Source: Bifidobacterium lemurum
GTDB lineage: Bacteria; Actinomycetota; Actinomycetes; Actinomycetales; Bifidobacteriaceae
Reading direction: 5' to 3'
DNA: 64,000 nucleotides
Assembly (NCBI RefSeq): GCF_014898175.1
Contig: NZ_CP062948.1
Coordinates: 2,728,001-2,792,000 of the forward strand
Shown: positions 33,221-54,995 of the stretch, piece by piece
Layout: the number at the start of each line of letters is the position of its first letter
Position numbering within the stretch: position 1 is the first letter of the stretch
Notes under the pieces: model-generated
Seen by the model: only the letters and a program-made list of their open reading frames with translations
Databases searched by the model: none
What the model was told of the DNA's origin: nothing
Translations under genes and position numbers: made by a program

Positions 33221-34696
33221 ATGATACGCAAAACATTGACCTGCATGCTCGCATGCGTCATGGGACTCACCATGGCTGGATGCTCGGGCGGATCCGAAGG
33301 CGGAAGTTCTTCGACCGCCGCCGACGGCACCATCAACGCCACACTGCCCGACGCATCGGCAACCGCAACCCCGCTGGTGGTCTACTACTCGTATTCCGGC
33401 AACACCAGACGCATCGCGCAGCGTCTCGCCACCATCATCGACGCGGACTCATACGAGATTCGAACCGTCGACTCCTATCCGGAGAATCCCCACGACACCG
33501 CCGAAGTCTCCCAACAGGAGCGGAACAGCGGTGATCTGCCCGAACTCGTGGACGATCTGCCCGACTTGGAGGCATACGACACCATATACATCGGCGGCCC
33601 CATTTGGAACGGATATATGGCGACCCCGCTGGAACGCTATCTTGAAAGCACCGATTTCTCCGGCAAAACCGTGGTTCCGTTCAGCACCAGCATGGGATCC
33701 GGCCAGAGCGGATACCTCGACGATTTCAACGAACGCGTGCGCGACCCCGAGACCATCGGATCGTATACGGATATCGAATTCCCGGACAACGGCGATCCGG
33801 ATGCGTTCACCGACGAGCAGATCGACGAACTGCTGTCCGATTGGCTCGACGACAACGACGCACGCCCGCATGTCGTCGCCGATGTCACGTTGAACAGCGG
33901 ATACACCATGCCGATGCTGGGACTCGGCACTTGGACGCTGTCGGACGACGAGGCGGAGAACTGCGTGTACCACGCGCTCGAGGACGGATACCGACTGGTG
34001 GACACCGCCCAGTATTACGGCAACGAGGTGGGCGTCGGCAGGGGCGTGCGCAAGGCGATCGCCGACGGCATCGTCACCCGCGACGAGGTGTTCGTGACCA
34101 CCAAAATCATGCCCGGCACCTATGCGGACCCGGACGGCGCGATCCAGGAGTCGCTGGACAGGCTGAATCTGGAATATATCGACCTGTTGCTGCTGCACCA
34201 GCCCGGATCGCACGACGAAGAGGTGTACCGCGGCATGGAAAGGGCCGTGGACGAAGGCGTGGTGCGTTCGATCGGCATCTCCAACTATTACACGCAGGAG
34301 GCGGTGGACGAGGTGTTGTCGTTCGCGCGCATCACACCTGCGGTGATCCAGAACGAGCACCATATCTACAATCAGGACGACACCCTGCAGCGGTATGTGA
34401 GCCAATACGGCATCGCCATGGAAGGCTGGTATCCGTTCGGCGGCCGTGGCCACACGTCGGAAAGCTTCAACAACGAAACCATCATGGCTTTGGCCGACGA
34501 ATACGGCAAGACCTCCGCCCAGATCATTCTCCGCTGGCAGCTGCAGACCGGTTTCATCGCTATTCCGGGCTCGAGCAACCCCGATCATATCGCCGAGAAC
34601 CACGACATCTTCGACTTCGAGCTCACGGACGAGGACATGCGTTCCATCGGGGCCATCGACGAGGGTCTTCGCTATGAGGAGGCATGGCACGACTAA
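33221..34696 (+). CDS. Secreted lipoprotein fusion: flavodoxin domain + aldo/keto reductase
   Basis: One 491-residue reading frame carries a lipoprotein signal (TMAGC, Cys21) and a short S/T-rich linker. A flavodoxin domain follows (about 52-212; FMN phosphate loop SYSGNTRR at 57-64; YIGGPIWNGYMATPLERYLE), joined directly to a complete AKR domain (about 218-491). The AKR tetrad is intact: D261, Y266, K295, H326. The joined domains, predicted to sit outside the membrane, suggest FMN-linked reduction of a carbonyl substrate there. Normally both domains use cytosolic cofactors, so the electron source is a puzzle. It heads a likely operon with two more AKR genes. No frameshift is involved. Confidence 0.93.
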   Translation: MIRKTLTCMLACVMGLTMAGCSGGSEGGSSSTAADGTINATLPDASATATPLVVYYSYSGNTRRIAQRLATIIDADSYEIRTVDSYPENPHDTAEVSQQERNSGDLPELVDDLPDLEAYDTIYIGGPIWNGYMATPLERYLESTDFSGKTVVPFSTSMGSGQSGYLDDFNERVRDPETIGSYTDIEFPDNGDPDAFTDEQIDELLSDWLDDNDARPHVVADVTLNSGYTMPMLGLGTWTLSDDEAENCVYHALEDGYRLVDTAQYYGNEVGVGRGVRKAIADGIVTRDEVFVTTKIMPGTYADPDGAIQESLDRLNLEYIDLLLLHQPGSHDEEVYRGMERAVDEGVVRSIGISNYYTQEAVDEVLSFARITPAVIQNEHHIYNQDDTLQRYVSQYGIAMEGWYPFGGRGHTSESFNNETIMALADEYGKTSAQIILRWQLQTGFIAIPGSSNPDHIAENHDIFDFELTDEDMRSIGAIDEGLRYEEAWHD

Positions 34697-34767
34697 CCGC
34701 GCCGGGCACCTCCCCAGCCCCATCGTCATCGAAACCACCGCAGACGCAACCATATAAGGAGCACACT

Positions 34768-35607
34768 ATGGAAACCATCACATTGAACAACGGCGTGACC
34801 ATGCCGACCCTCGGACTGGGGGTCTTCCAGATGCGAGACCCCGACCAGTGCGAGCGCACCGTCGACACGGCGCTGGAATTGGGATACCGACTCATCGACA
34901 CGGCGCAAAGCTACGGCAACGAGGCCGCCGTGGGCAACGCGATCTCACGCAGCGGCATCCCGCGCGACGAACTGTTCGTCACCACGAAGATCAAAGTCGC
35001 GAATCTGACCTACGACCGGGCGAGAACCTCCCTCCTCGAATCATTGCGCGCCATGCGGTTGAACTATGTGGATCTGCTGCTGATCCACCATCCCTACAAC
35101 GACGTCTTCGGCGCATGGCGGGCCATGCGGGAGCTGCGAGACGAAGGATTCGTGCGGGCCGTCGGCGTTTCGAACTTCCCGCCGGACCGTTTGGAGGATC
35201 TGGTGCTGCATGGCGGCGAGACGCCGCAGCTCATGCAGATCGAGATGCATCCGTTCAACCAGCAGCACCCTTCGATGGAGCTGATGCGCCGGCACAATAT
35301 CCGCCCCGAGGCATGGGGTCCGCTGGCGCAGGGCAAATTCGGCATCTTCGACAATCCCACGCTTATGGGCATCGCCGCCAAACATGAAAAGACGGTGGCG
35401 CAGGTCGTATTGCGTTGGCTGTTGCAACGCGGCGTGACCGTCATTCCCAAAACCGTGCACGAGGAACGTCTCAAGGAGAATCTGGACGTATTCGATTTCA
35501 CGCTGCGCGACGACGAGATGCTCGCCATCAACACGCTCGACCAGAACCTAACCGTCACGCCGCAGATGCGCGAACCGTTCTGGATCGACAATCTCAGCTC
35601 GTTCTAA
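34768..35607 (+). CDS. Aldo/keto reductase (3), DkgA-like
   Basis: The 279-residue cytosolic AKR belongs to the COG0656 branch (2,5-diketo-gluconate reductase-like): it begins METITLNNGVTMPTLGLGVF and has D and Y in LIDTAQSYGNEAAVG, K in LFVTTKIKVANL, H in VDLLLIHHPYND and the C-terminal cofactor region VTVIPKTVHEERLKENLDVF. Start ATG 34768 follows AAGGAG. It lies 71 bp after the fusion gene and 31 bp before the next AKR gene. Members reduce aldehydes, ketoses and alpha-ketones; the substrate here is unknown. Confidence 0.95.
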   Translation: METITLNNGVTMPTLGLGVFQMRDPDQCERTVDTALELGYRLIDTAQSYGNEAAVGNAISRSGIPRDELFVTTKIKVANLTYDRARTSLLESLRAMRLNYVDLLLIHHPYNDVFGAWRAMRELRDEGFVRAVGVSNFPPDRLEDLVLHGGETPQLMQIEMHPFNQQHPSMELMRRHNIRPEAWGPLAQGKFGIFDNPTLMGIAAKHEKTVAQVVLRWLLQRGVTVIPKTVHEERLKENLDVFDFTLRDDEMLAINTLDQNLTVTPQMREPFWIDNLSSF

Positions 35608-35638
35608 CCCAACCAACCACCCTTAAGGAGGCATAACC

Positions 35639-36601
35639 ATGAGAACGATGCAATTGGCGCGTCTGAACGTGTCGGCCATCGGCATGGGCTGTATGGGATT
35701 CAGCCACGGCTACGGCGAGCCGACGGAACACGACGAGGCAATCCGCCTCATGCGATATGCCCACGAGCGGGGCTGCACGTTCTTCGATACGGCCGCATCC
35801 TATGCGGCGGGACGCAACGAATCACTGGTGGGCGAGGCGTTGGCACCGATCCGCGACGAAATCGTGCTGGCGACGAAAACCCATATTCCCGAAGACGACG
35901 AACGTCCGGTCTACGACGTGCTCAAAGAATGTCTGACGGCGTCGCTAAAACGGCTGCGCACGGATCATGTCGACCTGTACTACCAGCATCGGGTCAACCG
36001 CGGCATCCCCGTCGAGGATGTGGCCGAGGCCATGGGCCGGCTTATCGACGAGGGGCTCACGCTCGGCTGGGGCCAGTCGCAGCCTACCGAGGGCGAGGTG
36101 CGGCGCGCCCATGCCGTTACGCCGATGACCGCCATGCAATGCGAGTTCTCCATGATGGAGCGTTCGTTCGAGAAGTCGGTCATTCCCGCATGCCGCGAAC
36201 TGGGTATCGGCGTGGTCGCCTTCTCCCCTATGGCCAGCGGGTTTCTGTCCGGCAAATACGCGACGGACGCCGTCTACACCGGCGATGACGTGCGGCGGGT
36301 CATCACCCGCTTCGCGCCGGAGAATATGGCTGCCAACCAACCTGTGTTGGATCTGCTTGGCGAATACGCGGCGGCCAAGGGCGCCACGCCCGCGCAGATC
36401 GACCTCGCCTGGATCCTCGCCAAAGGCATCGTGCCGATTCCCGGCATGCGGCGGATCTCACGCATCGACGAGAACCTTGGCGCCGCGGCGGTATCGCTCA
36501 CCGACGACGAATATCGTCGGATCGAAGAGGCGCTCTCCCAACTGACCATCCACGGCGACCGCACGGACGAGGACATCGCCAAGCTCAAAACCATGCGTTG
36601 A
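35639..36601 (+). CDS. Aldo/keto reductase (4)
   Basis: The 320-residue cytosolic AKR of the COG0667 branch starts MRTMQLARLNVSAIGMGCMG. D and Y in FFDTAASYAAGRNESLVG, K in IVLATKTHIPEDD and H in VDLYYQHRVNRG form the tetrad. IPGMRRISRIDENLG is the cofactor site. It is close in sequence style to the AKRs at 41092 and 63302, suggesting local duplication. It closes the three-gene operon begun by the flavodoxin-AKR fusion. The start at 35639 follows AAGGAGG. Confidence 0.95.
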   Translation: MRTMQLARLNVSAIGMGCMGFSHGYGEPTEHDEAIRLMRYAHERGCTFFDTAASYAAGRNESLVGEALAPIRDEIVLATKTHIPEDDERPVYDVLKECLTASLKRLRTDHVDLYYQHRVNRGIPVEDVAEAMGRLIDEGLTLGWGQSQPTEGEVRRAHAVTPMTAMQCEFSMMERSFEKSVIPACRELGIGVVAFSPMASGFLSGKYATDAVYTGDDVRRVITRFAPENMAANQPVLDLLGEYAAAKGATPAQIDLAWILAKGIVPIPGMRRISRIDENLGAAAVSLTDDEYRRIEEALSQLTIHGDRTDEDIAKLKTMR

Positions 36602-36681
36602 CGATTCATGCCTCGACGCGGAACTTCGCCTTCCGAACAGGACGCGCCTCCCGCCATACGGAACTGTCGGCCCTCCCACTT

Positions 36682-36819
36682 CGTCATCCTGAGCGAAGTC
36701 CGCAGGACGGAGTCGAAGGATCTCATTGCATGTTAGTCGACAAGGGTTCGAGATCCTTCGACTCCGCTACGCTCCGCTCAGGATGACGGAGAGGGTACGC
36801 TCCGCTTAGGATGATGACG
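36682..36819. repeat. Dispersed repeat, inverted pair plus fragment
   Basis: CGTCATCCTGAGCGAAGTCC continuing to GGATCTC (36682-36724) faces GAGATCCTTCGACTCCGCTA continuing to CAGGATGACG (36750-36788); a fragment CGCTCCGCTTAGGATGATGA follows to about 36819. It lies between the convergent AKR and DUF2798 genes. Confidence 0.8.
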
Positions 36820-36868
36820 ATGGGAAGGCCCAAGCCTGCTTCGACATGGGAAGAAGGCCGGGAATAGG

Positions 36869-37387
36869 CTATAGCGCCGCGGCGCGTTCAATGCCGGCGT
36901 TCATCTCAACGGCGACGGGCTCGTTCCAGCGGGCGGCGTCGCCGACCATGTGCACGATCTTGCCGGCCAGCGGGGCCACGATAAGCATCTGGATCGGCAG
37001 GGCGATGGTGAAGTTGTAGGGGAACATCTCAAAGAAACCGACGACCGCGGCACCGGTGAATCCGAAGGCCATGATCGCGCCGAAAATCGTCATGAACACG
37101 GTCATAAGCACCACCATGAGGAATTTGACGGTGATGCCCTTCCAGACCGGACGGTCCTCCTCTTTGCAGAACATGCCCGCCAGTTTGCGCGAGCTCGGCG
37201 TGCAGATGCCCAGATCGCAGATCATGCCCACCACGTAGGCAAGCGGGAAGTTGAACACGGCGTAGCTCCAGGCGGCCGCGCCCACGTCGCCGGTGCGCAC
37301 GCCATAGTTGAGCGCGGCCATCACGTAGATCATGATCGCGGACATGATGAAGCTGAAGAGGATGCCTTCTTTGCCGTTACGGGGCAT
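36869..37387 (-). CDS. DUF2798 family membrane protein
   Basis: The 172-residue protein contains four hydrophobic segments in two related halves (GILFSFIMSAIMIYVMAALN; FLMVVLMTVFMTIFGAIMAF), the arrangement of the DUF2798 family. The function is unknown; it is an inner-membrane protein. The start MPRNGKEGILFSF at 37387 is preceded by AAAGGAATT. It follows on the same strand as the quinone reductase gene at 37680, from which a strong terminator (37607-37641) and a 292-bp gap separate it. Confidence 0.82.
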   Translation of the reverse strand: MPRNGKEGILFSFIMSAIMIYVMAALNYGVRTGDVGAAAWSYAVFNFPLAYVVGMICDLGICTPSSRKLAGMFCKEEDRPVWKGITVKFLMVVLMTVFMTIFGAIMAFGFTGAAVVGFFEMFPYNFTIALPIQMLIVAPLAGKIVHMVGDAARWNEPVAVEMNAGIERAAAL

Positions 37388-37606
37388 GGTTCGAGAATTC
37401 CTTTCGTTATGGCTTCCGGCCCCTCTTGATGCAAAGCAAGGGGGCGCATAACGAAAGCCCGCGGAATGCGGCGATCATAATGGCGACTTCCTGGCAAACG
37501 GGTCGAACCGTCGTGTCGGGGGCCGCTTGCAACGTGTTACTTTAGCAGACCCGTCGACCACGCAAGTCCCTTTCGGGCGTGTCTTTCCGTGTCGAGACCA
37601 TACGAA

Positions 37607-37641
37607 AAAACGGCTTGGAGGAAGGCCTTCCAAGCCGTTTT
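37607..37641 (-). terminator. Terminator of the NAD(P)H oxidoreductase gene
   Basis: AAAACGGCTTGGA (37607-37619) pairs perfectly with TCCAAGCCGTTTT (37629-37641), with a 9-nt loop. On the minus strand it ends in TTTTTTCG. Confidence 0.9.
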
Positions 37642-37679
37642 GAGTTCTTTCTCGGGGTTGGCATCCCGCGGCCGACAGA

Positions 37680-38201
37680 CTATCGACCCAACGCCTGCGC
37701 ATACCGGCCGGCGGCCGCCTCCAGCTCGTCGTCGGAGAGGTTCAGCGTGCCCGGCAGAATGAACGGATCCAGCCAGGTCATGCCGATGTGGTTGGCGGTC
37801 GCGCGCATGGGGGCGAGCAGTTCGGGCACGGTGATGCCGAATTCGCCGTCCTTCGTGTACTTCTCGCCGGCGCCGCCCGCGCTGACGGCGACCATCAGCT
37901 CCTTGCCGTGCAACTTGTCTCCGGTGGAGCCGTACGCCCACCCGTATTCCAGCACGTCGTCCTGCCATTGCTTGAGCAGCGCGGGCGAGCTGTACCAGTA
38001 GAACGGGAACTGCCACACGATGCGGTCATGGTCCTCGACCAAGCGCTGTTCGGCCTTCACATCGATGGCGAAGTCCGGGTAGAGCACATACTCGTCGCGC
38101 ACGGTCACGTCGGCCATGCCTCGCGTCGCCTCCAACAGACGGCGGTTGACCCGCGACTCGTTCATATTCGGATGGAATGCCAGAATCAGCGTGTTCGCCA
38201 T
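37680..38201 (-). CDS. KefG/NQO1-like NAD(P)H-dependent quinone oxidoreductase
   Basis: A 173-residue flavodoxin-fold FMN/FAD oxidoreductase. The N-terminal LILAFHPNMNESRVNRRLLE is the phosphate-binding region, WQFPFYWYSSPALLKQWQDD is the conserved isoalloxazine/dimer motif, and VAVSAGGAGEKYTKDGEFGI is the loop typical of KefF/KefG/modulator-of-drug-activity proteins. These reduce quinones and other electrophiles by two electrons, protecting from redox cycling. It precedes the flavodoxin gene at 38337 only by position (same strand, 135-bp gap) and fits the island's electrophile theme. Confidence 0.9.
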   Translation of the reverse strand: MANTLILAFHPNMNESRVNRRLLEATRGMADVTVRDEYVLYPDFAIDVKAEQRLVEDHDRIVWQFPFYWYSSPALLKQWQDDVLEYGWAYGSTGDKLHGKELMVAVSAGGAGEKYTKDGEFGITVPELLAPMRATANHIGMTWLDPFILPGTLNLSDDELEAAAGRYAQALGR

Positions 38202-38336: not shown

Positions 38337-38819
38337 TCAGATTCCCAGCGACTCGACCCACTTGCGCACGTCATTGTCGGACACGGCAGATTGGAAGCGG
38401 TGGCCGGGACGCCAGTCTCCCGCGTCGGCGAGCGCGGCGAGACGGGTGTCACTGTCTCCTAGCGGCGAGCTGGCGGACGTGCAGAACGGGACCACCGTCT
38501 TGCCGGCGAAGTCGTTGTCGGTGACGAATCCGTTGACGGGCCATGCGGCGATACCCCACCAGATCGGGTAGCCGATGAGTACGGTGTCGTAGGAGTCCCA
38601 ATCCGGCACGGCCGCGCTGTCCAGTGGGGTTTCGCGCAGCGTCGGGTCGTCGTGTTCGCGCACGACGCGGCTGTTGGCGTCGCGCCAGTCCAGGTCGGTG
38701 TCCGTGTAGGGGTCGGCCGGGATGATTTCGAACAGGTCGGCGCCGGTGGCGTCGGCGATGGTCTCGGCGACGCGCTTGGTGTATCCTTCGGCGGAATAGT
38801 AGGCCACAAGTGTTGTCAT
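38337..38819 (-). CDS. Cytosolic flavodoxin
   Basis: The 160-residue flavodoxin lacks a signal peptide. It starts directly with strand 1 (MTTLVAYYSAEGYTKRVAET) with an FMN phosphate loop of the AEGYTKR type. It then has PDWDSYDTVLIGYPIWWGIA and KTVVPFCTSASSPLGDSD, marks of the flavodoxin_4 family. It is the cytosolic paralogue of the two lipoprotein flavodoxins at 40207 and 50250. A MerR-type promoter lies 39 bp upstream (38858-38888). The start at 38819 follows AAGGAGC. Confidence 0.94.
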   Translation of the reverse strand: MTTLVAYYSAEGYTKRVAETIADATGADLFEIIPADPYTDTDLDWRDANSRVVREHDDPTLRETPLDSAAVPDWDSYDTVLIGYPIWWGIAAWPVNGFVTDNDFAGKTVVPFCTSASSPLGDSDTRLAALADAGDWRPGHRFQSAVSDNDVRKWVESLGI

Positions 38820-38857
38820 GATGCTCCTTCTTTGGATGGATGGACGGGTTGGCACCG

Positions 38858-38888
38858 ACATTACTCTCCGGTAGCTGCTACCGGTCAA
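38858..38888 (-). promoter_or_regulatory. MerR-type promoter, site 1
   Basis: On the minus strand: -35 TTGACC (38883-38888), a 19-bp spacer, -10 TAATGT (38858-38863). The 17-bp dyad CCGGTAGC-T-GCTACCGG (38868-38884) occupies the over-long spacer, the classical arrangement for MerR activators. It drives the flavodoxin gene at 38337-38819. Confidence 0.85.
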
Positions 38889-38908
38889 ATCGGGACGTGC
38901 CTGGGGAA

Positions 38909-40206: not shown

Positions 40207-40839
40207 ATGAAGAAAATCGCAGCCGCGGCCATGAGCATCGTACTTGCCGCCAGCCTCGCCGCCTGCGGAGGAACCTCGCAGTCCGACGCGCAGGATTCCG
40301 ATACTTCCCAGTCCGATTCGTCGACGAGCACCGACACCCCCACCACCAGCGGTGACGGATCGACGCTCGTGGTCTATTACTCGGCCCAAGGTCATACGGA
40401 AGAGGTGGCAAACGCCATCGCGAACGCCGCCGACGCCGACATCTTCGTCATCGAACCGTCCGAGCCGTACACGGACGACGATCTCAACTGGACGAACGAC
40501 GACAGCCGAGTCTCCGTCGAACACGACAACCCCGACCAGCGCGACGTGGAATTGACGACCACCGAAGTGCCCGATTGGGATTCCTACGACACCGTGTTCA
40601 TCGGCTATCCGATCTGGTGGGCCGTCGCCGCATGGCCGGTCAACGGATTCGTCGAGGCGAACGATTTCACCGGCAAGACGGTGATTCCGTTCTGCACCTC
40701 CACCAGCTCAGGACTCGGATCGAGCGCCACCCAGCTGGCCGAACTCGCCGGCACCGGCGACTGGCAGGAAGGCCAGCGCTTCTCATCCAACGCATCCGAA
40801 TCGGATGTTCAAGACTGGGTCGCCAGCCTGAATCTGTAA
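40207..40839 (+). CDS. Lipoprotein flavodoxin (1)
   Basis: The 210-residue product has a signal peptide with lipobox SLAAC (about residues 15-19). An S/D/T-rich linker of about 35 residues follows, then a flavodoxin_4 domain: LVVYYSAQGHTEEVANAIAN with the FMN phosphate loop, DWDSYDTVFIGYPIWWAVAA, and TVIPFCTSTSSGLGSSATQL. It should be tethered outside the membrane. I chose the ATG at 40207 because AGGAGG sits at good spacing; an ATG nine bases earlier is too close. Transcription is expected from the MerR-type promoter site 3. Confidence 0.94.
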   Translation: MKKIAAAAMSIVLAASLAACGGTSQSDAQDSDTSQSDSSTSTDTPTTSGDGSTLVVYYSAQGHTEEVANAIANAADADIFVIEPSEPYTDDDLNWTNDDSRVSVEHDNPDQRDVELTTTEVPDWDSYDTVFIGYPIWWAVAAWPVNGFVEANDFTGKTVIPFCTSTSSGLGSSATQLAELAGTGDWQEGQRFSSNASESDVQDWVASLNL

Positions 40840-43278: not shown

Positions 43279-46179
43279 TCACTCGTCGGAGGGGACAGGG
43301 ATCGCGCCTTCTTCGCGACGACGGCGGATGAAGCGCCGGATGGACACGACCTCAAGTCCGACGGTCAGCAGCGCGAGTGCCCCCACCGCGACCCAGGTGA
43401 TGGTCTGCCAGATCGGAATCGTCCGTTCGGGCTCTCCGTTCTCGTAGTGGTAGCTGTTGACCGCGGTGTACAGGATGTTGTGCGCCGCGTTGCGCATGGC
43501 GATCATCGAAGTGGCGGAACGGTCGGTCACGTGGTTGGTCACGTCCGTGGTGGAGAGCATGATGTCGTTGCCGTTGCGGATCATCTGGTCAGCGTTCTGG
43601 AAGCCGAAGCCCGCGAAGTAGTCGGAGAGCACCATGCCGTTGAAGCCCCATTCGTCGCGCAGCACGGTCTGCTGCAACGGAGCGTAGGCGGCGGCGTAGG
43701 TCACGCCGATGTAGTTGTAGGCGCTCATCACGGCCTGCGCGCCGCCGTCCTTGACGGACATCTCGAAGGGCTTGAGATAGGCTTCGCGGATGGCCTGCTC
43801 GTTCGACCATGTGGTGAGCATCGACCAACGGTTGGTTTCCTGGTCGTTGAGTGCGAAATGCTTCATGAAGGAGTACACGCCGCGCGAGCGGGCACCTGCC
43901 ACTTCGGTGGCCGCCATCGTGCCGGTGAGCAGCGGATCCTCCGAATAGTATTCGAAGTTGCGGCCGCCGAACGCGGAGCGATGCAGATTCATGCTCGGCG
44001 CGTACCAGCCGGAGGCATCCATGTCGTGGGCCATGTCGCCGATGATCTCGCCGAACTCGCGGGCCAGATCCTGGTTCCAGGTGCAGGCGAACGAGGTGGA
44101 TGAGGGGAAGCCCACGGAGCCGACTCCGGTGAAGTTGTTGTTCAGCGAGGCCGGGCCGTCGAGGTCGGTGAGCGCGATCTTGCCGATGGAGTCGATGGCC
44201 TGGGTACCGTAGCCGCCGAGCGCGATCAGCGTGTCCATCTCGTCGAAGGTGAGCTGGTCGAGCAGGTCGTCCCAACGCTCGTCGTCGTAGTCGGCGCCGT
44301 ACAGGTCGGCCAGGCGTATGCCGTTGTCGGCGCCGGTGGTCGGCATCACGTCGTCCGCGTTGTTGTGGTCGGCTGGGTCGTAGGAGCCGTTGTTCTCGAA
44401 GTTGGCTTTGTATTCGTCCGCCAGCGAGTAGGTGCTCGGCGCGGCGGTGGCCTCGGCGTAGTTCGCGAATCCGTCGGCGCGGCTCAGATAGGTCACGTCG
44501 CCGGCCGCGTCGTCGAACTGGTTGGTGGCGGCGACCTGGTCGTCGGAGCGCGGGTTGGACTCGTCGTAGACGATGGTCTCGTCCACGGTCACGGTCCGCT
44601 CGTCGATCACGGTATGCGAATCGGTGTTGATGGACACCACGTAGTCGCCCTGTTCGAGCACGTACGCTTCGGCGTCGTTCTCGTCGTAGGAGGCCATGTC
44701 CTCGTCGGCGAACTCGACGGTCAGCGTCTGCGATTCGCCCGGGGCGAGCTCGTCGGTTTTGTCGAAGGCCACCAGATTCGCGGAGGCCTTTTCGATGCCG
44801 CCGTTGGTGTAGGGCGGGTTGTAGTAGACCTCGACCACATCCTTGCCGGCCACGTCGCCCGTGTTGGTCACGGTCACGTCGAAGCTGATCGTGCCGTCGG
44901 AGTCATAGGTCACGTCGCCCATCTCTTGGCTGAAGGTGGTGTAGCTCAGGCCGTAACCGAACGGATAGAGCACGGCTTCGTCGTAGTCGATGAGGCCTTC
45001 GTCGGCGGCGGTCTCGTAGAACTTGTAGCCGATGTAGATGCCCTCCACATAGTTGACGAAGGTGGGCACAGCGTTGGCCGCGAACGGGTCGTCCTCGGGG
45101 ATCTGGAACTCGTCCATATTGTCGAATTCGAAGTCTCCGAAGTTGTTGAAGCTGGGGGTGGCGGTCAGGTCGCGCACGAAGGTGTCGGAGGTTTTACCGG
45201 AGGGGTTCACGTCACCGGCGAGCACCGCGCCGAGCGAGGTGAATCCGGCCTGTCCGGCGGGCGGACACCATAGCACGGAGGTGATCTGCGGATAGTCGTC
45301 GAGGAAGTCGAGCTGGAAGGTGTTCGCGCCGTTGTAGACCAGCGTGACGTTCTCGAAGTTCGAGGTGACCAGATCGATCATGTCGCGTTCGGTCTGGCTG
45401 AGCTGCAGGAAGTGCTCGCCGGCCTGATAATCCTCGTAATCCTCGGAGTTGTTGGTGTAGGTGACTCCTTCGGCCTTCATGTCGGTTGGCAGGTCGGCGC
45501 CCTCGCCGCCCACGCGGGCGAGCACGATGACGGCGGTGTCGGAGAAGTCGACGGCGTCGGCGATGAGATCGTCGCCGTACTGCGCGGTTGGCACCTCGGG
45601 CAGCGTCCAATCCTGGGCGAACAGGCTGACTTCAGGACGATCGGCACGGTAGGAGGCGTACAGGTCGGTGAGATCCTGGTTGACGGTGAATCCCGCCTGC
45701 TCGAGTCCGTCGATCAGCGAGACGGTGGGATAGGTGTCCGACAGCGCGCCGGATCCGGTGCCGCCGTACACGGGATTGGTGGAGGCCCAGCCGAACACGT
45801 TGATGTTGCCGGCGGACAGCGGCAGGGCTCCGTCATCGTTCTTCAGCATGGTGATGGCCTCGTCTTGGATGCGCGGACCGAGGTCGTTGGCCGCGGCGAC
45901 CGTGCTCTCCTGCAGCGTATGGCGCTCGGCGGTGGCGTTGTTCAGCAGGCTGAACAACGGTCCGTACAGCATCAGCGTCACGGCGACCACGGCGGCGACC
46001 AGCACTGCGAGCCAGGTCTCGCCATGAACCAGTTTGCGCACGGACGTGGCCCGCACAGTGCGCGTGTTGACGGCGACCGTCACGACGATGCCGACGATCA
46101 GCGCGATGCCGATCGCGATGAGATGCGGAGCCACGGATGCGAGCACGTTGATCACATCGCTCCAATTGATACTGAGCAT
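43279..46179 (-). CDS. Membrane-anchored, circularly permuted GH3 glycosidase (1)
   Basis: The 966-residue product has the GH3 domains in permuted order. After two N-terminal membrane segments (about 17-36 and 55-75) comes the GH3 C-terminal domain (LKNDDGALPLSAGNINVFGW), then a fibronectin III-like domain (ISFDVTVTNTGDVAGKDVVE), then the catalytic barrel (IALTDLDGPASLNNNFTGVG). The nucleophile is probably D853 in MVLSDYFAGFG. One more membrane segment (about 924-947) and a basic tail end it. The catalytic part should face outward. Permuted GH3 enzymes are known beta-glucosidases; the substrate here is open. It is divergent from the carboxylesterase gene. Confidence 0.9.
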   Translation of the reverse strand: MLSINWSDVINVLASVAPHLIAIGIALIVGIVVTVAVNTRTVRATSVRKLVHGETWLAVLVAAVVAVTLMLYGPLFSLLNNATAERHTLQESTVAAANDLGPRIQDEAITMLKNDDGALPLSAGNINVFGWASTNPVYGGTGSGALSDTYPTVSLIDGLEQAGFTVNQDLTDLYASYRADRPEVSLFAQDWTLPEVPTAQYGDDLIADAVDFSDTAVIVLARVGGEGADLPTDMKAEGVTYTNNSEDYEDYQAGEHFLQLSQTERDMIDLVTSNFENVTLVYNGANTFQLDFLDDYPQITSVLWCPPAGQAGFTSLGAVLAGDVNPSGKTSDTFVRDLTATPSFNNFGDFEFDNMDEFQIPEDDPFAANAVPTFVNYVEGIYIGYKFYETAADEGLIDYDEAVLYPFGYGLSYTTFSQEMGDVTYDSDGTISFDVTVTNTGDVAGKDVVEVYYNPPYTNGGIEKASANLVAFDKTDELAPGESQTLTVEFADEDMASYDENDAEAYVLEQGDYVVSINTDSHTVIDERTVTVDETIVYDESNPRSDDQVAATNQFDDAAGDVTYLSRADGFANYAEATAAPSTYSLADEYKANFENNGSYDPADHNNADDVMPTTGADNGIRLADLYGADYDDERWDDLLDQLTFDEMDTLIALGGYGTQAIDSIGKIALTDLDGPASLNNNFTGVGSVGFPSSTSFACTWNQDLAREFGEIIGDMAHDMDASGWYAPSMNLHRSAFGGRNFEYYSEDPLLTGTMAATEVAGARSRGVYSFMKHFALNDQETNRWSMLTTWSNEQAIREAYLKPFEMSVKDGGAQAVMSAYNYIGVTYAAAYAPLQQTVLRDEWGFNGMVLSDYFAGFGFQNADQMIRNGNDIMLSTTDVTNHVTDRSATSMIAMRNAAHNILYTAVNSYHYENGEPERTIPIWQTITWVAVGALALLTVGLEVVSIRRFIRRRREEGAIPVPSDE

Positions 46180-48896: not shown

Positions 48897-48897
48897 T

Positions 48898-50039: not shown

Positions 50040-50249
50040 GACGCCTGAGCCCGCCGGCCCCACGCGTGGGCCGTTGGCCGTCATTCGCCAACGCACGACG
50101 ATTGATGGCCGAGTCCCACGCGCATTATGCGCAAAAGGCATGCGGTTCCATATTGTCCGCACATTTGATGAGCCATCGCCGTTCACCGTATGCTGACGGC
50201 ACATCCTTCACGGATGAGACACCCAAACCCCGTAGATTAAGGATCCATC

Positions 50250-50882
50250 ATGAAGAAGTTCACCACCGTGGCGCTCAGTCTGGCACTCGTCGCAAGCCTC
50301 GCCGGCTGCGGCTCTTCAACGGATTCCGTGCAATCATCGACGGATTCCGCGCAGAACGACTCAGGTTCGTCCACGGACACGTCCGAACCCGTCACCGATG
50401 CCACCGTTCTGGTGGCCTACTATTCGGCCACCGGCACCACCGCGGCCGTGGCTGAGCAGATCGCCGCGGCGACCGGAGGCGACCTGTTCGAGATCGAGGC
50501 GGCGGATCCGTATTCCGATGACGATTTGGATTGGACCGACAGCGACAGCCGCGTTTCGCGCGAGCACGACGACCCCGGCAGCAGGGACGTGGAGCTCGTC
50601 TCCGCTGCCGTCGACGGTTGGGATTCCTATGACGTCGTGTTCATCGGCTACCCAATCTGGTGGGGCATCGCCGCATGGCCCACCAGCAGCTTCGTCGCGG
50701 CGAACGACTTCACCGGCAAGACGGTGGTGCCGTTCTGCACTTCGGCCAGCTCGGGACTCGGTTCGAGCGGCAGTCAACTGGCCGAGCTCGCCGGTACCGG
50801 AGACTGGCTGGAGGGGCAGCGTTTCGGCTCCTCGACCTCGGATGACGACGTTCGCTCGTGGGTTGAAGGCCTTGGCCTATGA
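50250..50882 (+). CDS. Lipoprotein flavodoxin (2)
   Basis: The 210-residue product has a signal peptide with lipobox SLAGC (about residues 16-20). An S/T/D-rich linker follows, then flavodoxin_4: VLVAYYSATGTTAAVAEQIA (FMN phosphate loop SATGTT), GWDSYDVVFIGYPIWWGIAA and KTVVPFCTSASSGLGSSG. It is close to the proteins at 38337 and 40207. Its TGA overlaps the start of the transmembrane flavocytochrome gene (ATGA, 50879-50882), tight translational coupling that suggests the two proteins are electron partners on the outer face. No MerR-type site is seen upstream. Confidence 0.95.
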   Translation: MKKFTTVALSLALVASLAGCGSSTDSVQSSTDSAQNDSGSSTDTSEPVTDATVLVAYYSATGTTAAVAEQIAAATGGDLFEIEAADPYSDDDLDWTDSDSRVSREHDDPGSRDVELVSAAVDGWDSYDVVFIGYPIWWGIAAWPTSSFVAANDFTGKTVVPFCTSASSGLGSSGSQLAELAGTGDWLEGQRFGSSTSDDDVRSWVEGLGL

Positions 50883-52168
50883 GCGCATCCCATCGCCTAA
50901 GTCTGATTGTGCCTCTTGTCTGGATCGCACTGCTGGTTGTGATTCCGGCGACGCTGGTGGCGGTGTTCGTCGTCTGCGCGCCGGCGATGATCGCCGCGCT
51001 GATTCCGCGCATCGCCGCAGGGCTCGTCGCCTACGTGTGGATGCTGGAGGCCATCGTGCTCGCCACGCGCCCGCATTGGCTGGACCGTCTGATCGGACTG
51101 CCGAAGATGTATATGATGCATGGCGTGCTGGGCGTGCTGGCTTTGGTGTTCGCGTTCCTTCACCAGCTTGATTTGCCGTCCGCCGGACTGACCCAGCTGA
51201 CCGGTCAGGTCGCGTTCTATATGCTGTTGGCGCTGGTGGTGGTCGCGTTGGTCACGATGGCGGGTTGGATTTCGGAGCGTTTCGCTCCGGCCAAGGCGCT
51301 GCGGCGGGCGATCGAACGCGTGGGCCGGCATGAGGTCAACGTGTGGCTGCACCGCCTGCTGATCGTGGCGACCGCCATCGTGGTCGTGCATTTCAATCTC
51401 GTCTGGTATTTCACGATGATGCCGGCGTTCGTCGCCACGGCGAACGCCTATGCCGCCGTTGTGGCGGCCGTGTATGTGTGGGTGAAATTCCGCGACCGTG
51501 TTCTGGCACCGCAAGGCAGGGTCGTCGACATTCGCAGGCTTTCCGGCGATGTGTGGAGTCTCGAGGTGCGTGTTTCCGCATTGGCCGACTCGTGGGAGGA
51601 GGGCGATTTCGTATTCCTACGCTTCCCCGGGGTCAAAGGCATGGGCGAATACCATCCGTTCTCCATCATGAACCGGCCGAATACGGTCGGCCTGATGACG
51701 TTCGCCATCCGTGCCGACGGTGATTTCACTAAGCTGCTCGGCACTTCCATAAGCAAAGGGATGCGGGTCGCCATGCTGCGTCCGTTCGGACGCTACCGCC
51801 GGTTCTTGGAGGAACGTGGGAGCGGACGACCTGTGGTCATCTACGCCGGAGGCATCGGCGTGACGCCGCTGATACCGGTGGCCCAGTACTGCACCGAACA
51901 TGGCCGCAAGGTGACCATGCTGTATTCCGCACGCACGCCCGACGATCTCATCGGACAGGACGAGCTGACCGCATGGGCGGCGGAATCGGCAAGCACGCTG
52001 CGTCTGCTGGTCGGCCAGTTCAGCGAACAGGAGCTCGCCGACGCGACCAGGCCCGACGCCCTGTATCTGATCGGAGGCCCCTCCCCCATGCTGCGCGCGA
52101 TCACAACGATGCTGCGCCGCAACGGCGTGCGCAGATCGGATATCTTCACCGAACCGTTCACCTGGTAA
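50879..52168 (+). CDS. Ferric reductase-like transmembrane flavocytochrome
   Basis: The 429-residue protein has six hydrophobic segments and then an FNR-type reductase domain. Four histidines in two helices, H81 and H95 (HGVLGVLALVFAFLH) and H158 and H171 (HRLLIVATAIVVVH), have the spacing of the two bis-His hemes of FRE/NOX proteins. FAD is bound by HPFSIMNRP (259-267) and NAD(P)H by AGGIGVTP (323-330), ending GGPSPMLRAITTML and FTEPF. It moves electrons from cytosolic NAD(P)H across the membrane; the flavodoxin lipoprotein overlapping upstream is the obvious acceptor. Alternatives are ferric iron or quinone reduction. Confidence 0.92.
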   Translation: MSASHRLSLIVPLVWIALLVVIPATLVAVFVVCAPAMIAALIPRIAAGLVAYVWMLEAIVLATRPHWLDRLIGLPKMYMMHGVLGVLALVFAFLHQLDLPSAGLTQLTGQVAFYMLLALVVVALVTMAGWISERFAPAKALRRAIERVGRHEVNVWLHRLLIVATAIVVVHFNLVWYFTMMPAFVATANAYAAVVAAVYVWVKFRDRVLAPQGRVVDIRRLSGDVWSLEVRVSALADSWEEGDFVFLRFPGVKGMGEYHPFSIMNRPNTVGLMTFAIRADGDFTKLLGTSISKGMRVAMLRPFGRYRRFLEERGSGRPVVIYAGGIGVTPLIPVAQYCTEHGRKVTMLYSARTPDDLIGQDELTAWAAESASTLRLLVGQFSEQELADATRPDALYLIGGPSPMLRAITTMLRRNGVRRSDIFTEPFTW

Positions 52169-52293
52169 GAGAGCTCCTTCGTCCGCCATCTCAGACCTCT
52201 CAGCGAAGTCTCGCCCCGCCCTGCCTTTAAGCTCGCTCTCGTTATCCTGAGTGCCCTTTTCACCATCCTGAGCGGGCACGCCCATTCTCTTCT

Positions 52294-52395
52294 GTCATCC
52301 TGAGCGGAGCGCAGCGGAGTCGAAGGATCTCATGGATGGGGGTGGCCGTTATGAGATCCTTCGACTCCGACCTAGCGGCCTCCGCTCAGGATGAC
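52294..52395. repeat. Dispersed repeat, inverted pair
   Basis: GTCATCCTGAGCGGAGCGCA continuing to GGATCTCAT (52294-52333) faces ATGAGATCCTTCGACTCCGA continuing to CTCAGGATGACG (52351-52395). Weaker fragments precede it from 52241. It lies between the convergent flavocytochrome and SnoaL-like genes. Confidence 0.85.
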
Positions 52396-52435
52396 GTGAT
52401 GATTCGCGCTGAATGGCGGAGGCGCGAACAACGAT

Positions 52436-52870
52436 TCAGCACAGCGCGGAATCGGACAGGGCCCAGCCTTCCACGACGCGCACGCCGCGCTCGTCCTTGT
52501 TGTCTTTGAACTTGACGAATTCCATGGTGTGCTGGAGAATCTCCGCCCCGGTGTCCAGATTCTTGACCTTCACCGTATACCTGATCGCGGCCCAGTCGCC
52601 CTTGATAATCATGTTGTCGAAAGCGCCTAGCTCCATGGTGAAGTGCTCGAACAGCTGCCCCATCATGCCCTTGTATTCCTCGAGCGTGCAGCGGCGCTGG
52701 GATCCGTTGAAGGGGATGTTGTAGTAGGCATCCGGCTCGTAGAGGGTGTTGCACCATTCCAGCCAACCGTCGTAGCCGCCGTTCCAGTTGCGGAATCCCG
52801 TCTCCAGACGGTCCTTGATCGCTTCCTCCATCGCGCTCGTCTCAGCGTAGTCGGCCATTGTGCATGCCAT
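52436..52870 (-). CDS. SnoaL/NTF2-like fold protein
   Basis: The 144-residue cytosolic protein has a SnoaL-like alpha+beta barrel: DAYYNIPFNGSQRRCTLEEY, LGAFDNMIIKGDWAAIRYTV, then RVVEGWALSD. Such domains act as small isomerases, cyclases or hydrolases and often accompany AKR genes. The frame is open far upstream, but the domain starts at MACTMADYAETSA (ATG 52870, with AAGGAAGG before it). It is divergent from the TetR gene, with which it probably forms a regulator-target pair. Confidence 0.85.
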   Translation of the reverse strand: MACTMADYAETSAMEEAIKDRLETGFRNWNGGYDGWLEWCNTLYEPDAYYNIPFNGSQRRCTLEEYKGMMGQLFEHFTMELGAFDNMIIKGDWAAIRYTVKVKNLDTGAEILQHTMEFVKFKDNKDERGVRVVEGWALSDSALC

Positions 52871-52951
52871 CCTTCCTTGGGGTTCATATTCCATATTGAT
52901 TGCGTAAAGCCGGCCGCCTTCACCTTGCATTGTGTTGGGAACCGGACGATA

Positions 52952-52972
52952 TTCAGTGTAGTTTTCACTGAA
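52952..52972. promoter_or_regulatory. Dyad between the SnoaL-like and TetR genes
   Basis: TTCAGTG (52952-52958) and CACTGAA (52966-52972) flank TAGTTTT in the 189-bp divergent intergenic region. It is a candidate TetR operator. Confidence 0.55.
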
Positions 52973-53059
52973 ATACCAACGTTCAGACACACTCTGACAA
53001 TGTGTAAGGTATGCTGGACGAAAACCCGCGATTTTCCGCAGAAAAGCGAGCGCATCACA

Positions 53060-53650
53060 ATGCAAGGCGAACATACCGCAGTCTCCGCGCGTGAAAGACG
53101 TCCATCCCAGGCGCGGGAGAAACTCATCCGCGCGTTTTGGCGACTGTATTGCACCGGCCCGATCGACAAGATCACCGTGCGCGAGATCACCGCGCTGGCG
53201 GGATACAGCCGCGCCACGTTCTACGAGTATTTCAGTGGCGTGCGCGACGTGCTCACGCACATCGAGGACGAGTTCTTCGACCGCATCAACGCGATGGACC
53301 AGTCGCCGAACGAGGCGCCGTCGTATGAGCAGCTGACCGCGCACATGAGCGACATCCTGTCGTTCGCCGAGGAGTATCAGGAGTATGTCGCCGTGCTGCT
53401 CTCCGACCGGGGCGATCCCTCGTTCTCGCGTCGGTTCAAGGACATGCTCAAGCCGCTGATCGAGGCCAATCTGCCTCCTCAGGCTCCCAGATACGGGCGC
53501 GAACGCGATCTGGTATGCGAGTTCTACGCCTCCGCGCTGACCTCCACCATCGCCGCATGGCTCGCCGACCCGGGCGGCGTGTCCCTCGAACGTTTCATCG
53601 TCTTCCAGATGAACTACATCTTCCGAGGATTCTCACTGACGCAGACATAA
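53060..53650 (+). CDS. TetR-family transcriptional regulator
   Basis: The 196-residue regulator has a TetR N-terminal HTH (LIRAFWRLYCTGPIDKITVR; ITALAGYSRATFYEYFSGVR) and a helical C-terminal ligand domain related to TetR_C_7-type repressors (FYASALTSTIAAWLADPGGV). The ATG at 53060 starts the conserved part; its ribosome site is weak. It is divergent from the SnoaL-like gene with a dyad between them. The tandem CTCATATATGAG sites 88 and 128 bp after its stop could be another target ahead of the lipoprotein AKR gene. Confidence 0.9.
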   Translation: MQGEHTAVSARERRPSQAREKLIRAFWRLYCTGPIDKITVREITALAGYSRATFYEYFSGVRDVLTHIEDEFFDRINAMDQSPNEAPSYEQLTAHMSDILSFAEEYQEYVAVLLSDRGDPSFSRRFKDMLKPLIEANLPPQAPRYGRERDLVCEFYASALTSTIAAWLADPGGVSLERFIVFQMNYIFRGFSLTQT

Positions 53651-53737
53651 TGGAGCTCGGACATTCCCAGCATCGACATCGTCAAGGTCCGTCAGGTCGT
53701 ATGGGCCGCGCACATCAATCATATGAATCTGAACATA

Positions 53738-53789
53738 CTCATATATGAGCAGTATTTAATGATTTAGCCTATATTTACTCATATATGAG
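53738..53789. promoter_or_regulatory. Two identical CTCATATATGAG palindromes 40 bp apart
   Basis: CTCATATATGAG occurs at 53738-53749 and 53778-53789; both are preceded by TA, and the 40-bp spacing is close to four helical turns. They lie in an AT-rich part of the gene-free stretch 53651-53996, upstream of the lipoprotein AKR gene. A looped or cooperative repressor site is likely. Confidence 0.75.
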
Positions 53790-53843
53790 TATTTTATGCT
53801 GATTGGTTTTCATTCATCTGTTATACAATCCATCATCATTCGG

Positions 53844-53872
53844 GCTTGCCATACCCTGCCGTTATGGCAAGC
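53844..53872. repeat. 10-bp inverted repeat upstream of lipoprotein AKR
   Basis: GCTTGCCATA (53844-53853) and TATGGCAAGC (53863-53872) flank a 9-nt centre. No T-run follows, so it is more likely a regulatory dyad or leader hairpin than a terminator. Confidence 0.6.
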
Positions 53873-53996
53873 ACATACACATGGCATTGGATTATCGATT
53901 CCGCAAAGCCCATACTGACATCAAACGGCGGTGCCCAAGCGCCTGACGAACAGCCGCACCGGCATTGCACCGACAGACTTCGGAAGGATTCGAGTT

Positions 53997-54995
53997 ATGA
54001 CCGACTTTTTCCACCGCTTTCGCCGCACCATCGCACTCCTACTGTCCATCGTCTGTCTAACTCTGTGTGGGCTTGGAGCGTTGTCGGGATGCGCATCCGG
54101 GAACGTCTCCGTCATGCGGGGCGACGAATCACAGGAATCACACGAACGGAACAGCGAGGACAACATGACCGACATCGTTCGTCAATTCAATTTCAGCACA
54201 CGCACCGTCGAACTCAACAATGGCATCACGATGCCTCTTAACGGGCTCGGCACATATAGCTTGCATGGCGAGGAATGCACCAAAGCCGTCACCGCAGCAT
54301 TGAATGCGGGTGTACGGCTTATCGACACCGCCCATATCTATGGCAACGAACAGGAGGTGGGACAGGCGATCAGCGAATCCGGCGTACCTCGTGAAGAGGT
54401 GTTCGTGATCACCAAACTCTATCCAGACCAGTTCGATGGTGCCGCAATAGCTATCGACCAAGCGTTGGAAGCGCTCGATATCGGCTATATCGACATGATG
54501 CTGCTGCACCATCCGGGAACGAACGACGTCGCCGCGTATCGTGCGATCGAAGACGCGATCGACGAAGGCAAGGTACGTGCAGCGGGGTTGTCGAACTGGT
54601 ATGTGGACGAGCTTGAAGAGTTTCTGCCGCAAGTCGACGTCACACCGGCGTTGGTGCAGAACGAGATCCACCCGTACTATCAGGAGAACGACGTCATCCC
54701 ATATATCCAGAAACTCGGCATCGTAGTGCAGGGTTGGTATCCATTCGGTGGCCGCGGCCATACCGGCGAGATGTTCGCCGATGAGACGCTTCAAGAGATC
54801 GCCCAAACGCATGGCAAATCGCCGGCACAAATCATCCTGCGTTGGAATCTGCAGAAAGGCGTGGTGGTTATTCCCGGCTCCAGCAATCCCGATCACATCC
54901 TCGAGAACACCGAGATCTACGATTTCGAGCTCTCCGACGATGAGATGGCCCGCATCAACGCGCTCGACCGCAACGAGAAGCACGACTGGTATTAA
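53997..54995 (+). CDS. Lipoprotein aldo/keto reductase (6)
   Basis: The 332-residue protein has a signal peptide (TIALLLSIVCLTLCGLGALS) with lipobox ALSGC (Cys32), a short linker, and a complete DkgA-like AKR domain. The tetrad is D110, Y115, K140 and H171 (LIDTAHIYGN; VFVITKLYPD; IDMMLLHHPGT). The closest relative in the window is the AKR half of the flavodoxin-AKR fusion (shared VQGWYPFGGRGHTGE-like and PGSSNPDHILEN). A second possible start, M57 with GAGG upstream (54165), would yield a cytosolic form. AKRs on the cell surface are unusual because the cofactor is NAD(P)H. It is convergent with the LysR gene and their stops overlap by 4 bp. Confidence 0.92.
   Translation: MTDFFHRFRRTIALLLSIVCLTLCGLGALSGCASGNVSVMRGDESQESHERNSEDNMTDIVRQFNFSTRTVELNNGITMPLNGLGTYSLHGEECTKAVTAALNAGVRLIDTAHIYGNEQEVGQAISESGVPREEVFVITKLYPDQFDGAAIAIDQALEALDIGYIDMMLLHHPGTNDVAAYRAIEDAIDEGKVRAAGLSNWYVDELEEFLPQVDVTPALVQNEIHPYYQENDVIPYIQKLGIVVQGWYPFGGRGHTGEMFADETLQEIAQTHGKSPAQIILRWNLQKGVVVIPGSSNPDHILENTEIYDFELSDDEMARINALDRNEKHDWY

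Follow-up and report, generated by a model that had tools for sequence, protein, structure and literature searches.

Flavodoxins and AKRs are classically cytosolic proteins; why, then, does one locus of Bifidobacterium lemurum encode both with lipoprotein signals, beside a membrane flavocytochrome? We addressed this question in a window of 64,000 nt, the whole stretch of DNA analysed (assembly GCF_014898175.1, contig NZ_CP062948.1, positions 2,728,001 to 2,792,000). This gut bacterium seems to pass electrons across its membrane to a surface-anchored flavin protein, with an ordinary flavodoxin in the role that a covalently flavin-tagged protein has in its relatives.

Table 1. Features of the window, with positions counted from its first letter.
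Feature	Position	Strand	Evidence
Cyclophil_like2 lipoprotein	28729..29307	+	Pfam PF18050, E 1.7e-22; lipobox LLGAC, by eye
Flavodoxin_4-AKR fusion lipoprotein	33221..34696	+	Pfam; lipobox TMAGC
Flavodoxin_4 protein, no recognised signal peptide	38337..38888	-	PF12682, E 9.1e-43
Flavodoxin_4 lipoprotein	40207..40839 (start 40198 or 40207)	+	PF12682, E 2.2e-43; lipobox SLAAC
Flavodoxin_4 lipoprotein	50250..50882	+	PF12682, E 1.6e-42; lipobox SLAGC
NOX/ferric-reductase-type NAD(P)H flavocytochrome	50879..52168	+	Pfam FAD_binding_8, NAD_binding_1; six helices, two histidine pairs
AKR lipoprotein	53997..54995 (alternative start 53931)	+	Aldo_ket_red, E 5.1e-50; lipobox ALSGC

Gene structure and signal patterns are plain at the sequence level, as are the partner swap and cofactor-site residues discussed below. 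Lipobox ends, identified by visual inspection of the translated genes, and concordant Pfam domains bear out an earlier, sequence-only reading of this DNA, which had proposed lipoprotein signals on two flavodoxins, an AKR and a flavodoxin-AKR fusion; by sequence pattern, these four proteins and the Cyclophil_like2 protein are predicted lipoproteins. The same reading had reported that the second flavodoxin gene overlaps the membrane-protein gene by 4 bp, and the two indeed have an ATGA in common. Purine-rich runs seen by eye upstream of four lipoprotein starts (the TMAGC, SLAAC, SLAGC and ALSGC genes) are putative ribosome-binding sites. Against Flavodoxin_4 (PF12682, cut-off 24), the two lone lipoproteins scored 147.9 and 145.1 bits and the fusion 80.5. 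Two genes had been overlooked: that of the Cyclophil_like2 protein, a fifth lipoprotein of the exported set, and that of the Flavodoxin_4 protein without a recognised signal.

The AlphaFold model of the 50879 product (pLDDT 90.5, pTM 0.85) contains six predicted helices (residues 10-33, 36-62, 74-98, 103-127, 153-174, and 182-208), and the heme-type histidine pairs H81/H95 and H158/H171 lie on the third and fifth of these. All four histidines were invariant in 22 of 22 aligned flavocytochromes (the window protein and 21 of 82 matches), and the top fold match of the model was SpNOX (8qt6, TM 0.71/0.76), consistent with the earlier description of a four-histidine ferric reductase-type membrane protein. 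The Pfam Ferric_reduct model PF01794 was not among the matches of the product at E 0.001 and scored 21.6 bits, below a cut-off of 28 that is a model threshold and not a biochemical feature. Predicted fold and conserved residues, not PF01794, are the grounds on which we place the protein in the NOX/ferric reductase family.

Several genomic comparisons bear on the partner of this flavocytochrome. First, the gene was found as a full or partial copy in 34 of 112 Bifidobacterium genomes, and all 34 loci were classed by their neighbours, using flanks of 1.5 kb for most and about 10 kb for some. ApbE was encoded beside the gene at 22 of these loci (FMN_bind was also seen in 19), a flavodoxin at nine, including those of the host and its sister genome G031, and neither at three, all with partial or degraded flavocytochrome copies; ApbE and flavodoxin together were found at none of the 34. 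The flavodoxin gene was adjacent at eight of the nine loci, and two AKR genes lay in between in G074. Second, outside Bifidobacterium, ApbE and FMN_bind were encoded within 4 kb at 44 of 52 named loci, FMN_bind alone at one and neither at seven, and no flavodoxin gene was found within 4 kb at any of the 52. Third, four of the nine flavodoxin-type genomes (G007, G012, G013, G081) had no ApbE match, and thus their carrier cannot be ApbE-flavinylated. Finally, the single DUF4405 match in the 112 genomes was in G053, the only exported-AKR genome among them found without this flavocytochrome; its gene starts 4 bp after that of an N-terminally hydrophobic, apparently membrane-anchored FGE-flavodoxin, apparently an independent case of a cytochrome paired with an exported flavodoxin. 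Electron transfer from the flavocytochrome to a lipid-anchored flavodoxin, as proposed earlier, thus gains comparative support from the 9 flavodoxin versus 22 ApbE loci; here the place of the ApbE-flavinylated carrier seems to be taken by an exported flavodoxin that is not flavinylated.

Eight of the nine partner flavodoxins carry a lipobox (that of L117 read by eye), and L120 has an N-terminal hydrophobic stretch; six are Flavodoxin_4 by Pfam, and three were assigned by similarity to the window flavodoxins (426, 271, and 82 bits). None of the four flavodoxin domains in the window matched the flavinylation-like motif in a pattern search, and alignment revealed no extra residues after strand 1, and thus no loop insertion. 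With motif and inserted loop both absent from the sequences, we rejected flavinylation of the window's exported flavodoxins as improbable. The motif occurred once in a 30-sequence flavodoxin set that excluded the sister-genome L134 sequences, near the C terminus of L035 and outside the loop, and was absent from 145 of the 158 long relatives, those in which a pattern located the P-loop. An extra loop after strand 1, at the position of the loop of published flavinylated flavodoxins, is present in two of the nine partners, L116 (G074, in which ApbE is present) and L120 (G013, with no ApbE match); both lack the searched motif, and the loop itself counts against an unflavinylated carrier.

We consider it probable that the core of the locus is a two-gene electron-export unit, in which the flavocytochrome reduces the surface flavodoxin encoded at 50250 in place of a flavinylated carrier. 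Electrons from cytosolic NAD(P)H would enter the flavocytochrome at FAD and cross by way of its two b hemes to the outside, where the lipid-anchored flavodoxin, with FMN bound non-covalently, would be reduced. This flavodoxin would fill the role that, with the same cytochrome, falls to an ApbE-flavinylated FMN_bind protein in lactic acid bacteria and streptococci, and in the majority of bifidobacteria that have the flavocytochrome. We infer the flow and direction of electrons, the loading of FMN and heme, and the flavodoxin as acceptor; terminal acceptors may include ferric iron, quinones, flavins or carbonyls. The second flavodoxin, fusion, AKR, and cyclophilin-like lipoprotein are members of a family of exported oxidoreductases that also occurs in gut Bacillota, and the flavodoxin parts of the first two may receive electrons from the same source. 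The host genome has no ferrochelatase match, and heme must therefore come from outside. It also has no TatC match (TatC was found in 11 of 14 controls), so the flavodoxin would be exported unfolded and loaded with FMN outside; Tat export with cofactors pre-bound was rejected for this host on the same ground. ApbE and FMN_bind are encoded elsewhere in the host, at 1298014 and 1331163, both more than 1.4 Mb from the flavocytochrome at 2778879, and the acceptor may therefore instead be a flavinylated carrier.

The sequence-only reading had also held that the flavodoxins power carbonyl reduction, and here the AKRs are informative. Pfam places Flavodoxin_4 at residues 52-163 of the fusion and Aldo_ket_red at 233-480, and the model of the protein shows two well-folded domains (mean pLDDT 85.3) with a pTM of 0.59, too low for their relative orientation. 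The nearest fold to its AKR domain is 1vp5. The exported AKRs resemble 2,5-diketo-D-gluconate reductases (1vp5, 1a80, 1m9h) in fold, nicotinamide-pocket residues and the D-Y-K-H catalytic tetrad, which is present in the fusion, the lipoprotein AKR, and 240 of 240 listed relatives; they differ in carrying lipoprotein signals and, in one case, a fused flavodoxin. At two positions that we take to be 2'-phosphate contacts, where an NADPH-type AKR has K and R, both window AKRs and all 240 listed relatives have G and H (cofactor motif IPGSSNPDHI in the lipoprotein AKR). The substitutions K232G and R238H reportedly favour NADH, according to Banta and co-workers. Excerpts of PMC4580623 list both for the change from 1A80 to 1M9H, so that at these positions the window AKRs match the engineered 1M9H mutant. 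Because the nicotinamide pocket is kept and the 2'-phosphate positions are G and H, the exported AKRs look NADH-dependent, and their sequences suggest that they use NADH. No flavodoxin-to-NAD+ step is evident, leaving flavodoxin-powered carbonyl reduction unsupported by direct evidence. The G/H pair was rejected as an exclusive mark of export: three of 27 locus AKRs have it, two lipoproteins and one without a signal (L127 7141), and the pair recurs in L145 8190, another AKR lacking a signal.

At the level of predicted domains, fusions tie exported AKR, flavodoxin and cyclophilin-like proteins together, and among the 120 listed relatives of the fusion, 104 join all three (hand count). It is quite unlikely that the exported AKRs retain NAD(H) outside and that flavodoxin, fused or neighbouring and charged by the flavocytochrome, reduces it again in situ. 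If true, this would be a transmembrane chain bringing hydride chemistry to extracellular carbonyls, and the Bacillota flavodoxin-AKR-cyclophilin-like fusions would be one-piece versions of it. A different account, possible if rather unlikely in our estimate, makes the island an electrophile/carbonyl-stress set whose exported members detoxify aldehydes or quinones with NADH from lysed neighbours, unlinked to the flavocytochrome. The gene content of the window (eight AKR genes, KefF-like and Old Yellow Enzyme-type genes, MerR/LysR/TetR regulators) fits this account, as do the kept nicotinamide pocket with altered 2'-phosphate positions and the AKR genes, none with a lipobox by the pattern applied, near the flavocytochrome at four of eight other flavodoxin-type loci. 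AKR genes were near the flavocytochrome at these 4/8 flavodoxin-match loci versus 4/58 ApbE/FMN_bind loci (Fisher p 0.0055, kinship ignored), counting loci with complete 4-kb flanks in both groups, with the sister locus in, the window out, the L038 flavodoxin lacking a signal, and L121 and loci without a flavocytochrome match above 120 bits left out. We did not use this proximity as proof of a link, because the flavodoxin-type loci are all Bifidobacterium, kinship is ignored and the AKRs show no lipobox by that pattern. By contrast, flavodoxin and AKR in one exported polypeptide suggest inter-domain electron traffic, and all three genomes of the 112 with exported AKRs at E 1e-70 have a transmembrane cytochrome gene, although two are sister species. 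No counterpart of the lipoprotein AKR was found at E 1e-70 in G031, the sister genome, and a phylum-wide search, in which few candidates were scored per genome, found exported-type AKRs in 2 of 396 genomes at this threshold, the host and G382.

It is unlikely that the flavocytochrome is a plain SpNOX-like ferric, quinone or oxygen reductase and the neighbouring flavodoxin a separate surface redox protein or flavin store. The nearest solved relative is indeed SpNOX, an NADPH oxidase (8qt6, 8qq7), with which the 50879 product shares fold and domain order; unlike SpNOX, to which it is 20-21% identical in fold alignments, it is encoded by a gene overlapping that of a flavodoxin lipoprotein, in an anaerobe. 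Flavodoxin lipoproteins are encoded without any full-length flavocytochrome relative in six or more Bifidobacterium genomes (G053, G056, G064, G062, G022, G006), and the last five have no DUF4405 match; B. simiarum (L038) and B. primatium (L039), outside the 34, have the flavocytochrome without adjoining ApbE/FMN_bind or signal-bearing flavodoxin. Against a plain reductase stand the gene overlap, the fact that nine genomes share the pair, and the finding of no locus with flavodoxin plus ApbE/FMN_bind. The linkage expected by the sequence-only reading is partly contradicted by the six or more flavodoxin genomes without a full-length flavocytochrome relative and by the finding of exported AKRs in only 3 of 112 genomes at E 1e-70. 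Some MsrQ-like flavinylated clusters are tied to iron uptake in excerpts of PMC8238504, which is also compatible with a plain reductase.

The Listeria-type extracellular electron transfer gene set is Ndh2/EetAB/FmnB/PplA. MsrQ-like flavinylated electron-transfer clusters, defined by PF01794 in the available portion of PMC8238504, resemble the two-gene electron-export unit in having a two-heme six-helix membrane protein with a C-terminal NAD-binding domain and an adjoining gene for an exported flavin carrier. Unlike the clusters described in that portion, the carrier here is a Flavodoxin_4 protein without a flavinylation-like motif, the combination of apbE and FMN_bind was not found in the cluster at the window locus, which has no apbE, and the 50879 product matches PF01794 only below cut-off; the unit would function like such a cluster but is not classed as one. 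As in the system of PMC11334425, where excerpts describe flavinylated extracytosolic Flavodoxin_4 with ApbE and DUF4405, an exported Flavodoxin_4 is associated with a membrane cytochrome; in contrast, the window flavodoxins have neither loop insertion nor motif, and the cytochrome is NOX-type. Exported, motif-less flavodoxins do not fit the contrast drawn in those excerpts between flavinylated exported and unflavinylated cytosolic flavodoxins. The "extracellular flavodoxin" of PMC5898192 is a flavodoxin-like domain that forms part of a predicted archaeal secretion system and was set aside as unrelated. As the sequence-only reading had supposed for bifidobacteria, we found no description of a surface flavodoxin/AKR system fed by a membrane flavocytochrome among the open-licence papers listed by our searches.

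That the signal peptides go unused, leaving the proteins to work in the cytosol, their classical location, is highly improbable: the pattern finds no signal in 10/120 listed fusion and 6/120 listed AKR relatives (several perhaps mis-started or truncated), but a lipobox in 107/120 and 105/120, or 212/240 (home-made pattern, window proteins included, many fusion relatives being near-identical 646-residue proteins), with SLH cell-surface domains in three relatives (P0115, P0120, P0298) and a twin-arginine-like lipoprotein signal on the G382 AKR. The last was read with what we take to be the twin-arginine motif; RR occurs within the first 30 residues of 3/120 listed fusion and 2/120 listed AKR relatives, one of the latter being the window AKR.

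The two-gene electron-export unit suggests that a membrane flavocytochrome can exchange its covalently flavinylated exported carrier for an ordinary flavodoxin, and that this can happen even where the genome has no ApbE match. Such a swap sits badly with the idea, in excerpts of PMC11334425, that flavinylation mainly prevents flavin loss outside the cell. The exported AKR/flavodoxin/cyclophilin-like family, nearly all of whose best 240 listed relatives carry export signals, has hitherto been unstudied, and its extracellular electron source is a testable question raised here. A plasmid search for the AKR returned one record, an Enterococcus AKR 42.5% identical, and the AKR lipoprotein gene has a GC3 of 0.694, versus 0.788-0.850 in seven other measured genes.

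Between 28.7 and 55.0 kb, the window carries the flavocytochrome gene and five lipoprotein genes of the same set. The sequence-only reading had named four of these lipoproteins (two flavodoxins, an AKR, and a flavodoxin-AKR fusion), all of which were recovered by Pfam and sequence, as was the 4-bp overlap of flavodoxin gene 50250 with flavocytochrome gene 50879, but it had missed the fifth, the Cyclophil_like2 protein. The Bifidobacterium host genome is a single contig of 2.97 Mb; its flavocytochrome shares 95% identity with a B. eulemuris protein in a sequence search, placing the host close to that species.

Predicted lipoprotein genes of the set and the flavocytochrome gene
Feature	Position	Basis	Remark
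Cyclophil_like2 lipoprotein (predicted)	28729	Pfam	
Flavodoxin-AKR fusion lipoprotein (predicted)	33221	Pfam	
Flavodoxin lipoprotein (predicted)	40207	Pfam	
Flavodoxin lipoprotein (predicted)	50250	Pfam	
AKR lipoprotein (predicted)	53997	Pfam	
Flavocytochrome gene	50879	Pfam	4-bp overlap with 50250 gene

Eight AKR genes were matched by Pfam at 26156-61767 (26156, 27722, 33221, 34684, 35639, 41026, 53997, and 60796), six of them with no recognised signal as judged by eye. A large glycoside hydrolase family 3-type protein with hydrophobic N- and C-terminal stretches is encoded inside the stretch under study (43279-46179; Pfam), and a second such protein, assigned by eye from similarity, is encoded past it (57814-60735).

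The 50879 product matched FAD_binding_8 and NAD_binding_1 (Pfam) and scored only below threshold for Ferric_reduct (21.6 bits against a cut-off of 28). Its AlphaFold model (pLDDT 90.5, pTM 0.85) has six long helices preceding the FAD/NAD part, with helices 3 and 5 bearing the two histidine pairs, and SpNOX structures were the best fold matches (8qt6, TM 0.71/0.76). These four histidines were invariant in all 22 aligned sequences (the window's own and 21 of 82 matches), bearing out the earlier description of a four-histidine membrane protein.

Gene neighborhoods point to a role for the flavodoxin beside this protein. First, 110 relatives were found in named genomes, and of the best 80 loci kept from these, 52 lie outside Bifidobacterium; 44 of the 52 have the flavinylating enzyme ApbE and the flavinylated carrier FMN_bind within 4 kb (in the order FMN_bind - ApbE - flavocytochrome at the loci where the order was read), one has FMN_bind only, seven have neither, and none has a flavodoxin within 4 kb. 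Second, a search of 112 Bifidobacterium genomes turned up a full or partial flavocytochrome copy in 34. ApbE adjoins it in 22 (FMN_bind also seen in 19, ApbE alone in the fetched flank in 3), a flavodoxin gene is its neighbor in 9, counting host and sister, and neither partner accompanies the remaining 3 copies, which are partial or degraded; flavodoxin and ApbE occur together at none of the 34. Eight of the nine partner flavodoxin genes are adjacent, with two AKR genes intervening in G074. Third, no ApbE match was found in four of the nine flavodoxin-type genomes (G007, G012, G013, and G081; completeness 93-99%). This distribution of one partner or the other, never both, together with the four genomes lacking an ApbE match, argues that the flavodoxin occupies the position held elsewhere by the flavinylated carrier. 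At two named loci outside the 34, from B. simiarum (L038) and B. primatium (L039), both partners are missing in their expected form: no ApbE, FMN_bind, or signal-bearing flavodoxin was recognised beside the flavocytochrome, and AKR genes lie downstream in L039.

Exported Flavodoxin_4 proteins have been described as flavinylated versions that occur with ApbE and DUF4405 cytochromes (PMC11334425). By contrast, motif search and alignment found neither a flavinylation-like motif nor the extra loop in the window's flavodoxins; two of the nine partner flavodoxins (G074 and G013) have the loop without the motif. In G074, two flavodoxin lipoprotein genes lie next to an ApbE gene (L125:5948-8552), and one of these flavodoxins has a loop insertion after strand 1.

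DUF4405 matched in only one of the 112 Bifidobacterium genomes, G053, in which no flavocytochrome relative was found. Its DUF4405 gene starts 4 bp past a fusion gene (L133:6086-8416) whose N-terminally hydrophobic product combines an FGE-sulfatase domain with Flavodoxin_4 and shows no flavinylation-like motif; locus L126 of this genome encodes cyclophilin-like, flavodoxin, and AKR lipoproteins inside ~10 kb. With this independent case beside the flavocytochrome pair, two distinct membrane cytochrome types thus adjoin unflavinylated flavodoxins that look exported. Exported AKRs were found in three of the 112 genomes (host, sister, and G053; E limit 1e-70), each with one of the two cytochrome types, a co-occurrence that counts as two cases because host and sister are sister species. 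At least six Bifidobacterium genomes have flavodoxin lipoproteins without a full-length flavocytochrome relative, only one of them with DUF4405.

We regard a two-gene export unit, in which the flavocytochrome would pass electrons to the lipid-anchored flavodoxin, as a fairly probable explanation, our confidence being slightly lowered because the B. simiarum and B. primatium loci are exceptional and two partner flavodoxins have the extra loop. That the unit is a new variant among known flavin-carrier electron-export systems is reasonably well supported; its extension to carbonyl reduction by exported AKRs, as originally proposed, is attractive but unproven.

Two AKR-family searches, for fusion and AKR relatives, gave 4379 and 7514 matches, respectively, among roughly 8000 candidates scored by each; both totals take in ordinary AKRs, and the examination covered the top 120 from each search. 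Most of the few relatives bearing an organism name are from Bacillota. Among these best 120, a lipobox was present in 107 fusion and 105 AKR relatives, a hydrophobic start only in 3 and 9, and neither signal in 10 and 6, counts that are non-independent because the window's proteins are themselves listed and many of the sequences are near-identical. A cyclophilin-like domain also occurs in 104 of the 120 fusion relatives. The catalytic D-Y-K-H is kept in all 240, as are S, N, and Q of the nicotinamide pocket; at the stacking position, 238 have W and 2 have Y. All 240 likewise have G and H at two cofactor positions where AKRs of the fetched loci mostly have K and R (n=27; first position K 24, G 3, two of the three G proteins being lipoproteins; second position R 19, H 8). 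The changes engineered in the mutant 1M9H reportedly favor NADH. PMC4580623 lists both changes, to G and to H, for this engineered mutant of 2,5-diketo-D-gluconate reductase; the pair is natural in the exported AKRs. Given the kept pocket residues and the shared pair, the exported AKRs probably still work with an NADH-type nicotinamide cofactor. As a mark of export as such, the pair was ruled out because two bifidobacterial AKRs without a signal also have it. The AKR lipoprotein gene 53997 has a lower GC3 (0.694) and no counterpart was found in the sister genome, which argues that it is probably a recent arrival. SLH cell-surface domains occur in three listed AKRs (P0115, P0120, and P0298), and two of the three also contain flavodoxin and cyclophilin-like domains.

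No TatC match was found in the host, which would mean that the exported set leaves by Sec and loads its cofactors outside the cell. The host genome also gave no ferrochelatase match, so its heme would have to come by scavenging; ferrochelatase scored above the Pfam cut-off in 8 of the 112 Bifidobacterium genomes (G002, G082, G083, G084, G087, G089, G090, and G091), four of which have three copies each. In G382, a genome of the same phylum, an AKR with a twin-arginine-like lipoprotein signal is encoded beside an MFS transporter gene (L144:9178-10176), and this AKR could be exported folded, with its cofactor in place; ~8 kb from it lies the gene of a Cyclophil_like2 protein whose start resembles a lipobox signal (L144:18286-18768).
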